From Adhaeribacter swui (lineage in GTDB: Bacteria; Bacteroidota; Bacteroidia; Cytophagales; Hymenobacteraceae), in contig NZ_CP055156.1 of the NCBI RefSeq assembly GCF_014217805.1, forward strand, positions 3,168,585-3,232,584: 64,000 nucleotides of DNA, read 5' to 3'. The position numbers and the translations under genes are program-made. The stretch's first letter is position 1; each line of letters opens with the position of its first letter. This document shows positions 26,376 through 63,457 of this stretch, in pieces. The notes beneath the pieces were generated by a model. The model ran no database searches and had not been told where the DNA came from. It worked only from the letters and a program-made list of their open reading frames with translations.

Positions 26376-26448
26376 CTAATTTTTAAAAATTTCTTTTGTT
26401 GTGTTTATACTACATAGGAAGAAGCAGTTGCTATTGCTGTTTTTCGTT

Positions 26449-26629
26449 GGAGCCTTTTCAAGCCTCCATGCTGTGGTGCTATCTAGCTTGCTGACTTCAA
26501 GTTTTGCCTCATGGCCGGCGGGCCTCGTTTAGCTATTTCGCACTCGCTAGCCTTCCTTTCCTCGACTGCGTCTGCGGAATTTTGCTGCGCAAAACCGGAA
26601 CCCTAGCAGGTGCTCAACAGCCAAACTGG
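26449..26629 (-). repeat. 181-bp structured repeat, copy A
   Basis: Read on the minus strand from CCAGTTTGG (26629) to GGCTCC (26449), this copy aligns without any gap to 61394-61574, with 142 of 181 positions identical by hand count. Fully shared blocks include ATTCCGCAGACG, GTCGAGGAAAGGAAG, AAACGAGGCCCGCCGGCCA and GAGGCAAAACTT. Hairpin 1 is TTTTGC-GCA-GCAAAA and terminal hairpin 2 is GGAGGCTT-GAA-AAGGCTCC (one G-G mismatch). In the other copy the same positions form different but paired sequences. It could be a structured RNA, a small non-autonomous mobile repeat, or a structured terminator; no open reading frame is kept. Confidence 0.85.
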
Positions 26630-26911
26630 GATCGGTTGGGAGTAGCTCCTGTTTAATCCGGAAGAAAGGAAAGTCGTAGCTTAATGTAGCTAACACCAGT
26701 TTAGCCCTTTAGTTGTGCTTAGAGTTAGCGCAGCGCTCTAAGCACTTATCTCGGATTGGCGAAATAGGATAGGGCATTCGGATAAAGGCCAATCAGGAGA
26801 TTGGCTGAACGAAAAATGGGTAGAGACCGCTAACGCGAACTCTACCCATAACTATCAAATCTGCCTAAAACGGCACTTATTCAAAATTTTAAAATTTTAA
26901 AAATTATATAA

Positions 26912-61125: not shown

Positions 61126-61768
61126 TTGTTGGTTGTTCAGGTTTTAAAGCTTGAGAAATTTAATGATATGATGGTTTATTGATATAAAGGATTATAGCCT
61201 GATTTAGTATTTGTCAGGTACTTAGTCTATAACTAGATGGAAGCAGTTAAAAACCTAAAGCAAGTACTTCTGACTTAAGTTGATGATAGTTTATTGCGAA
61301 TTAAAAGTACGAGCTGCAAGCTCGCACTAGCGGGATAGGAAAAATTTTAAAAAATAGTTGCCTAAAATAAAACAGTAACTACAAGCAAAGACTCCAGTTT
61401 GGCTCTAGAGGGCCTTCTAAGGTTCCGGTGTGGCAAAGCCACATTCCGCAGACGGAGTCGAGGAAAGGAAGCTTAGACCGCCCGAAAGAACCAAACGAGG
61501 CCCGCCGGCCACGAGGCAAAACTTAAAGCTTACGAGTTAGATAGCACCAAAGCATAGAAACTTAAAAAGTTTCTAAGTAAGTACGGTAGAACTAGCCTAT
61601 AATACTATTATAATAGCTTTAGCAGCTTCGTAAAGCAGATGCGGGTTCCGGCTTTTAGCCGGAGTAAAGTCAGAGACTTTAACTTATAAGTGGGCCCAAG
61701 TTTTCAAAATTGCGCCAGTTAAATAAAATTCTTTACCCAAGTCATACAATTGCTAAAATTTAAAAAAA
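61126..61768. other. 643-bp convergent intergenic region with structured repeat and hairpins
   Basis: There is no gene here. It holds a small hairpin at 61310-61324 (CGAGCT-GCA-AGCTCG), copy B of the 181-bp structured repeat (61394-61574), a 12-base palindrome CTATTATAATAG near 61605, and two perfect hairpins at 61648-61662 (CCGGCT-TTT-AGCCGG) and 61666-61680 (AAAGTC-AGA-GACTTT). The flanking genes converge on this region, as they do around copy A. Confidence 0.8.
61394..61574 (+). repeat. 181-bp structured repeat, copy B
   Basis: This copy aligns without gaps to the minus strand of 26449-26629. Hairpin 1 is TGTGGC-AAA-GCCACA, where copy A has TTTTGC-GCA-GCAAAA: two T-A pairs have become G-C pairs. 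Hairpin 2 is AGAAACTT-AAA-AAGTTTCT, where copy A has GGAGGCTT-GAA-AAGGCTCC; two G-C pairs have become A-T and one mismatch has become a pair. The core from AAACGAGGCCCG to CAAAACTT (+61492 to 61523) is nearly unchanged. No reading frame is conserved. Confidence 0.85.
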
Positions 61769-63457
61769 TTAAAAATTAGAACCGGGCTTAGCCAAAACCT
61801 GTTTATCCTGCATTAACCGCGCTTTAAGCACCGTATAATCCACATCCTGTACTGCTTGTTTTTTATCAATGGCCTGCGCAGCCGCGGTGGTGGCACTTTG
61901 GCCCAGAATCATGAAAACTGGTTCCATACGGATAGAGCCGTAAGCAATGTGCGAACTGGATAAACAAACCGGCACCAGTAAGTTCTGGCATTCCTGCTTT
62001 TTCGGGACAATAGCGCCGTAGCCAATCTGGTAAGGCTCTTTTAAATGTACGCCAATGTCGCCTTCGTTTTGCACGTAGCCGTCGGGTTTTACGTAACGTT
62101 GGATGTTGTGCGAATCCAAAGAATAAGAACCCATGCCCACAGGGTTATTTACCGGCTTTTTACCCATGGTTTCGTTTTCTGTCATCACGTAGTCGCTTAT
62201 CATGCGGCGGGCTTCGCGCACGTAAATTTGGTGCGGCCAGTTGCCGTTATCTTTAAACTCATCCTTGGCCAAACCCCAGGTATTCAATTCTTTTTGCAAA
62301 TCGGCCGGAATTCTTGGGTCGGTGGCCATAAAGTAGAGTAAGCCTTTCTGGTAATTTTCGTGGGCTTTAATTATTTCCCGGCGGCGTTCGTAGCTGGCTT
62401 CGGGGTAGTCGTAGTTCATGCCGATGTAATCCGTACTGACCGGGCCGTGGTTGTTGGTGTCGGTTTTGCGGTTTGGAATCGGGTCGAATTTTTGAAACAA
62501 TTCCCGCCAACCGGAGTCAAAAACCCGCACCAGCAATTCGTACTGCGCCGGGTCGTAGTTGTCGGGTTTAGGAAAGGGAACCCGGTTATCCGGGTGATTA
62601 CTCAAGCACATCCGGAAATTATAAGCCTGCACTTTGTTATCGCCCTGCCCTTTTTCGCCCGGACTATCCGGTGATATTAACGGCAACAAACCACTTGCCG
62701 GGTTACCCGGAATTTTATACGGGTCGATGTTTTTCTTAAAATAATGATCGTGGTGCAACACGCCGGTCTGGATGCCGTTGTATTGTTCGCCGTAGACCGA
62801 GTTGGCTTCGCGGCCCACGTGGTAACTCACACCCGCTGTAGCCATTAAATCGCCTTCGTAGGTAGCATCAATAAATATTTTACCTTGGTACGTTTTTCCG
62901 CTCAGCGTTTTGATGGAAGTAATTTTACCATTTTGCTTAACCAAGCCGTTTTCCCGGTCGAGCCATTCGTCGCGGTAAACGGGTATTTTATTTTCTTTTA
63001 CAAAATCCTCGAAAACGGCTTCGGCCGCGTGCGGTTCAAAAATCCACATGGTGCGGTCGGCGCCGTCCATGGCGGGCGTGCCCTGGCCTTTATTGCCGTA
63101 CTCTTCTTTTTTCTGCCAGGCCCAAGCCTCGGGTTGCTGGTAATGCCGGTAAATGCGTTGGTAAAATTCGCGGGCAATGCCGCCAATTACTTCTTTTTTG
63201 CCGGTATCGGTAAAGCCTAAACCACCGGCCGCCAATCCGCCTAAATGCTTGTCCGGCGAAACCACAATCACGCTTTTGCCCAACCGGGTAGCTTGCACCG
63301 CTGCCGCTACTGCCGAAGAAGTACCCCCGTACACGATAATATCGGCTTTCAACTCATTCTCTGAGTTACCGGAAATGCTTTTACCGGAGCGACCGGCGCA
63401 GGAAAATAAACTAAAACCAATCAGCAGCCAGGCCGCCAGCCATTTTTGGGTTTTCAT
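61769..63457 (-). CDS. FAD-dependent oxidoreductase, lipoprotein
   Basis: A 562-residue protein of the FAD_oxidored family. A signal peptide ends in a lipobox with Cys20 (FSLFSC-AGRSG), so it is anchored in the envelope. The dinucleotide-binding segment ADIIVYGGTSSAVAAAVQA (about residues 38-56) has Ser/Ala in place of the usual last Gly, as in other family members. TGKIFIDATYEGDLMATAG (about 193-211) and the C-terminal GQSATTAAAQAIDKKQAVQDV are family landmarks. Members occur near polysaccharide-degrading genes; the substrate is unknown. Its start is the ATG directly before the signal peptide. Confidence 0.88.
   Translation of the reverse strand: MKTQKWLAAWLLIGFSLFSCAGRSGKSISGNSENELKADIIVYGGTSSAVAAAVQATRLGKSVIVVSPDKHLGGLAAGGLGFTDTGKKEVIGGIAREFYQRIYRHYQQPEAWAWQKKEEYGNKGQGTPAMDGADRTMWIFEPHAAEAVFEDFVKENKIPVYRDEWLDRENGLVKQNGKITSIKTLSGKTYQGKIFIDATYEGDLMATAGVSYHVGREANSVYGEQYNGIQTGVLHHDHYFKKNIDPYKIPGNPASGLLPLISPDSPGEKGQGDNKVQAYNFRMCLSNHPDNRVPFPKPDNYDPAQYELLVRVFDSGWRELFQKFDPIPNRKTDTNNHGPVSTDYIGMNYDYPEASYERRREIIKAHENYQKGLLYFMATDPRIPADLQKELNTWGLAKDEFKDNGNWPHQIYVREARRMISDYVMTENETMGKKPVNNPVGMGSYSLDSHNIQRYVKPDGYVQNEGDIGVHLKEPYQIGYGAIVPKKQECQNLLVPVCLSSSHIAYGSIRMEPVFMILGQSATTAAAQAIDKKQAVQDVDYTVLKARLMQDKQVLAKPGSNF

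Follow-up and report, generated by a model that had tools for sequence, protein, structure and literature searches.

Two copies of a folded repeat in the window

The window, a stretch of 64,000 nucleotides of contig NZ_CP055156.1 from Adhaeribacter swui (GCF_014217805.1, here called the own genome), contains two copies of a repeat, copy A on the minus strand at 26449–26629 and copy B on the plus strand at 61394–61574. These positions delimit the 181-bp stretch over which the first-pass annotation had aligned the copies without gaps, with 142 identities. Our recount reproduced 142/181, and when copy B was placed without gaps at every position of either strand of the window, the next-best placement gave 76 identities (mean 45.2, s.d. 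5.9). The hairpin numbered 1 in that annotation (P4 in Table 1) is present and differs between the two copies by two compensatory pairs. Two compensatory pairs were likewise found in the terminal hairpin, as had been described, but a third difference there is uncompensated, being A-T in copy B and G opposite G in copy A.

The repeat unit exceeds 181 bp. Model R1, a covariance model built from 30 own-genome copies, spans the full arms given in Table 1. Judged by conservation among 110 arms, the unit starts at approximately AAAAGC.GTAGCTAA and ends at approximately CTCCAAAGAANAAC, and the 'long' arms continue with a downstream module. This module is present after copy B, for which no partner arm was found; the possible partner arm of copy A is broken by another palindromic repeat. 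The palindromic repeat GTGCTTAGAGTTAGCGCAGCGCTCTAAGCAC ... GCCAATC...GATTGGC is nested beside copy A (window 26700–26870) and recurs within the L204 spacer, there as two inverted units; a blastn search of the 20 Y1 loci treated below found no match to it at E 1e-3. Past the arms with a downstream module (window 61615–61725; L136, L141, L147, L150 and L157), a second, weak tandem R1 match of 11.6–38.5 bits was observed, and some copies with the module repeat the terminal hairpin 3′ of it.

Table 1. Features of the repeat in the window
Feature	Position	Strand	Remarks
Copy B, full arm	61373..61581	+ (predicted RNA strand)	R1 222.7 bits; ends refined on 110 arms
P1, 5′ strand (partner 61489–61496)	61397..61404	+	Helix 1: both-side changes in 6/8 pairs
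P1, 3′ strand	61489..61496	+	Copy B has one A opposite C
P4 hairpin TGTGGC-AAA-GCCACA	61430..61444	+	Hairpin 1 of the first-pass annotation
P6 hairpin GGCC-CGCC-GGCC	61499..61510	+	99.6% of cells paired
Pseudoknot, loop strand GCC	61504..61506	+	
Pseudoknot, tail strand GGC	61515..61517	+	
3′-terminal hairpin AGAAACTT-AAA-AAGTTTCT	61556..61574	+	Both-side changes among 30 own-genome copies
Downstream module with further hairpins	61615..61725	+	Follows part of the arms ('long' arms)
Copy A, full arm	26442..26651	− (predicted RNA strand)	R1 224.1 bits
Candidate partner arm for copy A, divergent and decayed	26674..26818	+	R1 12.5 bits, E 0.024; weak

Conservation of the fold and the pseudoknot

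Read as RNA, each arm (approximately 210–220 bp) has a long interrupted stem, P1-P2-P3, with the apical hairpins P4 and P5, followed by the GGCC hairpin P6, whose loop pairs with the strand just 3′ of it to give a pseudoknot; arms of the window's genus also have a 3′-terminal hairpin. This structure was assessed on a core set for which 70 of 88 matches were kept: nine were short and nine more were removed as listed duplicates, L081 and L101 among them although neither is a duplicate in that set. Alignment A7 holds 62 of the 70 cores and was built with MAFFT without structure. The eight cores left out (L160:1364, L039, L083, L084, L204:1955, L118:1364, L193 and L170:1338) had inserts or replaced helices or were otherwise awkward, and their omission can only flatter the A7 figures; L039, L083, L084 and L193 were included in alignment A8 and in the 30-sequence pseudoknot check described below.

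Standard pairs made up 94.4% of the A7 cells over 36 pairs, including the 3-bp pseudoknot, a result that is partly a fit because the structure was drawn after the sequences had been viewed and because eight of the 70 cores were omitted. Changes on both sides were detected in 28/36 pairs (396 cells), and the covariation score was 0.483, compared with 0.153 after shuffling. None of 500 shuffles reached any of five measures, and sliding the partners by 1–3 columns reduced the paired cells from 94.4% to 27–47%; on these two controls, the selection on a folded single strand proposed in the first-pass annotation is supported. Covariation was also present within the 30 own-genome copies. A further alignment, which was fitted to the model and so leans the model's way, showed covariation too.

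The pseudoknot (helix 7) was paired in 89.2% of its A7 cells. Of 30 sequences with loci outside A7, 28 form a pseudoknot of 3 bp or more, compared with a mean of 21.2 for shuffled tails (p 0.0002). Two of the 30, L212 and L213, share their sites with A7 members, and four are left-out cores seen earlier. The two misses, L322 and L325, come from a different family. Changes in the loop are matched in the tail, with CGCC accompanied by GGC, TCCC by GGG, TCGC by GCG, TCTC by GAGA and ATGC by GCAT.

The G-U cells of A7 outnumber the A-C cells by 45 to 12 in well-kept pairs and by 58 to 27 in all pairs; in the slid controls the ratio of G-U to A-C was 0.4 to 1.8. Alignment A8 gave 72 G-U and 7 A-C, a figure that leans on the model. 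The G-U excess marks the strand that reads outward. Together with the sense bias at tandem sites (see below), it suggests RNA rather than DNA; a fold of single-stranded DNA also tolerates G-T pairs.

Copy number and arrangement of arms in the A. swui genome

The element proposed in the first-pass annotation proved to have many further copies: at least 128 R1 matches in 84 clusters were detected in the 6.2-Mb own genome when 150 of 1741 candidates were scored at E up to 0.1, part of these matches being antisense echoes of palindromic stretches. The outcome that the first-pass annotation had named as refuting its proposal was not observed: there are further genomic copies, the larger alignments covary, and Rfam gave no match at gathering score. 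At approximately 70 bits or more, 106 arms were present in 80 clusters (arms were used down to 71 bits), two clusters (three arms) and two small fragments having been left out. The order of the matches of at least 150 bp was minus-plus in 30/84 clusters, one of them with overlapping matches, and plus-minus in none. The paired arms thus lie head to head: their 5′ ends face each other, separated by an AT-rich spacer that varies, and each arm reads outward. A head-to-head pair was also seen outside the window's genus, with 73 bp between the matches (L310:1310–1629).

Two inverted arms round a short spacer, as in these 30 or so clusters, could represent a MITE of a DDE-type insertion sequence, with the arms as its long terminal inverted repeats, and the arms resemble MITEs in being non-autonomous and dispersed with two-armed forms. 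We regard this origin as very unlikely. Most arms are single, with one arm only above the cut of approximately 70 bits in 55/80 clusters, some of which have a weak partner; the spacers, among those listed, are mostly dissimilar by eye; and the strand-specific fold of the arms is under selection. Target duplications were visible in none of 24 pairs, where the longest exact flank repeat was 7, as in mispaired controls.

The one candidate for a parent encountered here, an insertion sequence beside arms in genome G002, has its own ends. It encodes a 451-aa transposase with 22 matched places, 12 of which have an arm a few hundred bases off, and we take the element to be IS4/Tn5-like (Pfam PF14706, 20.3 bits, below the cut-off of 24). 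The full copy examined (L238:2600–4040) has its own termini (GCTACGATTAGGACAC...) and a duplication of the 13-mer CCCTAAATTAGGG within the spacer palindrome, and in L242 the palindrome, one base different, occurs without the insertion sequence. On these grounds the element was rejected as the autonomous parent of the arms, the spacer being its target. It sits in the arm-spacer palindrome in either orientation (L238; L195, L196, L197 and L203).

In arms L123, L131, L142, L146, L168, L170 and L118, the long stem has a CTCCTCCCCTGTTTTTAGGGGAGG hairpin repeat in place of one of its sides. At L121:1523–2710 a serine-hydrolase-like gene, probably the single PF00144 match, is flanked by a fragmentary arm and a full one.

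Distribution over genomes and presence at orthologous sites

Model R1 matched 21/59 genomes, the own genome included, all in one taxonomic family and in 4/27 genera; genera g4 and g5 were among those without a match. Five genomes of three other genera contained at least 64, 96, 56, 17 and 16 copies (150 candidates scored per genome). The cross-genus model R2 matched 36/390 genomes of the order, again including the own genome, of which 27 belong to the home family and nine to three other families (E 1.7e-6 to 2.6e-10). Since nine candidates were scored per genome in the R2 search, nine is the ceiling for home-family copy numbers under that model; the counts outside the family, one copy per genome and two in one case, lie below it.

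Exact matches to the 18-base core quoted in the first-pass annotation were found in 17 stretches, six of which were tested with R1. Two Adhaeribacter aerolatus loci matched the model, and four Hymenobacter stretches with the exact core gave no R1 match. The core alone is misleading as a family marker. A blastn search with copy B at E 1e-3 found nothing in collections of plasmids and phages, and a search of viral contigs with one degenerate pattern gave 0 matches.

The first-pass annotation had suggested a look for empty sites in related strains. In the orthologous regions of other species, R2 detects no arm at site A in three species or at site B in one. The region orthologous to site A measures 169 bp between the flanking genes in G005 and approximately 237 bp in G003, and it is longer in G006, with approximately 1.1 kb of unrelated sequence; that of site B in G003 measures approximately 314 bp, and G003 carries an arm beyond the gene that flanks site B on the left. 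The sequences bordering the orthologous sites have diverged too far for a clean junction to be read, so that the differences may also reflect loss.

Gene context of the arms

The copies are intergenic, lie mostly on the 3′ side of genes and avoid promoter regions. The orientation of the arms relative to their neighbours is given in Table 2.

Table 2. Orientation of arms relative to flanking genes
Set	Tandem sense	Tandem antisense	Convergent	Divergent
Own genome, 55 one-arm clusters	26	6	22	1
Other genera and families, 46 arms	19	6	20	1
Other species of the window's genus, 16 arms	8	2	4	2

Convergent sites carry no orientation information, and the orientation test therefore consists of the tandem counts only (26:6, 19:6 and 8:2), of which the last is too small to count alone. 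For the two sets from outside the own genome, eight duplicate loci and one edge locus were dropped, and the pairs at L078 and L310 were counted per arm. The upstream gene lies on the strand of the arm in 48/55 own-genome cases, a figure in which convergent sites are mixed in. The flanks of the 80 own-genome clusters are convergent in 34 cases, tandem in 41 and divergent in four, and one cluster has no left gene.

A terminator-like hairpin was found in the first 250 nt from the stop codon of the upstream gene towards the arm in 31/48 cases, compared with 10 in mononucleotide shuffles, and in the 150 nt 3′ of the arm in 6/48, compared with 5.4, the finder used being lax and the stretches compared differing in length (250 and 150 nt). 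A second finder placed a hairpin before the arm in 29 of the same 48 single arms and, for arm pairs, on 13/33 gene sides, the latter count standing without a shuffled control. The distance from terminator to arm varies. More than half of the single arms thus lie past a terminator and are more than a 3′ terminus of the upstream mRNA.

These contexts bear on the proposal that the arm is a resident regulatory or stabilizing RNA, either in mRNA 3′ regions or as an independent small RNA, which was duplicated often in one family and is not itself mobile. The sense bias at tandem sites agrees with it, as do the three loci examined among the nine genomes outside the home family (L322, L324 and L325), which are single sense copies between co-directional genes, the same downstream gene recurring in two species. 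We take this gene to be Gfo/Idh-like; in a third species the gene 5′ of the arm is presumably MoxR-like. For one or two copies in distant families, a resident RNA gene fits as well as a mobile one. In the own genome, however, the arms occupy over 80 sites, the sites vary between species, and the upstream genes share no family: among 48 of them, any Pfam family occurs at most twice, and no constant gene partner was found. We rate a resident, non-mobile RNA as unlikely.

Comparison with known repeats, RNAs and mobilizing proteins

The first-pass annotation had known of no described family with this core. This held for Rfam 15, which gave 0 matches over the window at gathering score, and for the open-licence papers searched, in which we found no description of a repeat or RNA of this kind. 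Permissive Rfam searches returned matches far below the gathering scores: at copy B, RT-17 (E 3.5) and, on the opposite strand, RT-8 (E 0.11), BSnc120 (E 0.92) touching the end of the L204 arm, and MIR8562 (E 0.78) antisense in L322. The arms resemble the structured RNAs of Rfam (such as HEARO, RAGATH and riboswitches) in their covarying helices and pseudoknot, but they differ in the lack of a gathering-score match, in the copy number of up to more than 100 in the home family and in having no constant gene partner. Group IIC introns are RNA-type elements that lie on the sense side past terminators, and in this they resemble the arms; the distance between arm and terminator, however, is not constant, and no Rfam intron match (domain V/VI) was found at 61200–61800 with E up to 10.

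REP, BIME and REPIN sequences are high-copy and intergenic, form inverted pairs and lie near gene 3′ ends, and the arms share all of these properties. The arms differ from them in their length of approximately 210 bp, in their multi-helix fold with pseudoknot and in not adjoining Y1 genes (20 loci). They could nevertheless be DNA repeats of the REP/REPIN type that a RAYT transposase (TnpA-REP, Y1 HuH), perhaps of the Bacteroidetes subclass 2.6, moves in single-stranded form. Y1 proteins, a family that also takes in IS200-type proteins, were present in 11/12 genomes, and the frames at six of the 20 Y1 loci (L256, L257, L260, L267, L268 and L271) have the form NH[LV]H ... WQ ... YIH[NQ]NP; seven of the 20 have no frame with [ND]HxH. 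This is the signature listed for subclass 2.6, and 'atypical secondary structures' are reported to flank the genes of that subclass, with copies elsewhere in the genome (PMC6006769). The arm, however, is at least five times the length of a REP, the unit of which measures 20–40 bp (PMC3733652). None of the 20 Y1 loci (of 36 places listed) had an arm within approximately 1.5 kb (E up to 1), where approximately one was expected by chance from the arm density of the own genome, and G008, with at least 64 arms, had no Y1 match at E 1e-4. We consider movement by a RAYT unlikely.

The size, the pseudoknot and the multi-copy habit of the arms are similar to those of the omega RNAs of TnpB and IscB, and stand-alone guide RNAs of such nucleases might be suspected. 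The TnpB domain PF07282 was detected in 0/12 genomes, with the control positive in 6/14, and no Rfam family matched at gathering score; for IscB, RRXRR was found in 0/12 genomes, but its control was silent too, so that IscB may yet be present. We rate guide RNAs of this type as highly improbable.

A proposed mobile repeat encoding a folded RNA

We favour, with somewhat more belief than doubt, the reading that the arms are folded RNAs encoded in a non-autonomous mobile repeat that has spread between genes. The repeat itself is most likely mobile and non-autonomous. A putative trans-acting machinery would recognize the folded single strand and would insert copies intergenically, chiefly 3′ of genes, often as two arms placed head to head and reading outward. 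Among the partners looked for (TnpB, IscB, RAYT and the IS4/Tn5-like element), no mobilizer was found. The comparisons above show the fold and its pseudoknot, the numbers and approximate ends of the copies, their head-to-head order, their gene context and their presence or absence from species to species. Transcription of the strand, its action as RNA and the movement of copies, as opposed to gain and loss by other means, are inferred from these.

A more specific version, which we rate as quite unlikely, is a SINE-like retro-mobile RNA derived from an older single-copy RNA that is still present in other families of the order. The pseudoknotted RNA would then be transcribed, bound by a putative trans-acting enzyme and copied back into DNA, with insertion in sense on the 3′ side of genes, often past terminators, and without target duplication.

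Most of the high-copy repeats known from bacteria are simple palindromes or remnants of transposons. The fold of the present repeat is conserved, strand-specific and pseudoknotted, and it covaries even among the copies of a single genome; beyond the home family, the order has relatives in one or two copies per genome. Intergenic repeats of high copy number are a known kind, and so are structured RNAs; a combination of the two in this form is undescribed as far as the sources searched here extend. A real RNA seems to have been spread as a mobile repeat, with approximately a hundred copies scattered over the own genome and its shape kept over several genera. The repeat offers a system for asking how a structured RNA turns mobile, which enzyme moves the copies and whether the RNA still works.

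The copies at L322, L324 and L325, outside the home family, have a shorter apical part without P4 and P5. In genus g3 (L207–L214), the arm is preceded, at a distance of approximately 100 bp, by a conserved stretch that contains the palindrome GGACAGGTCGCGACCTGTCC.
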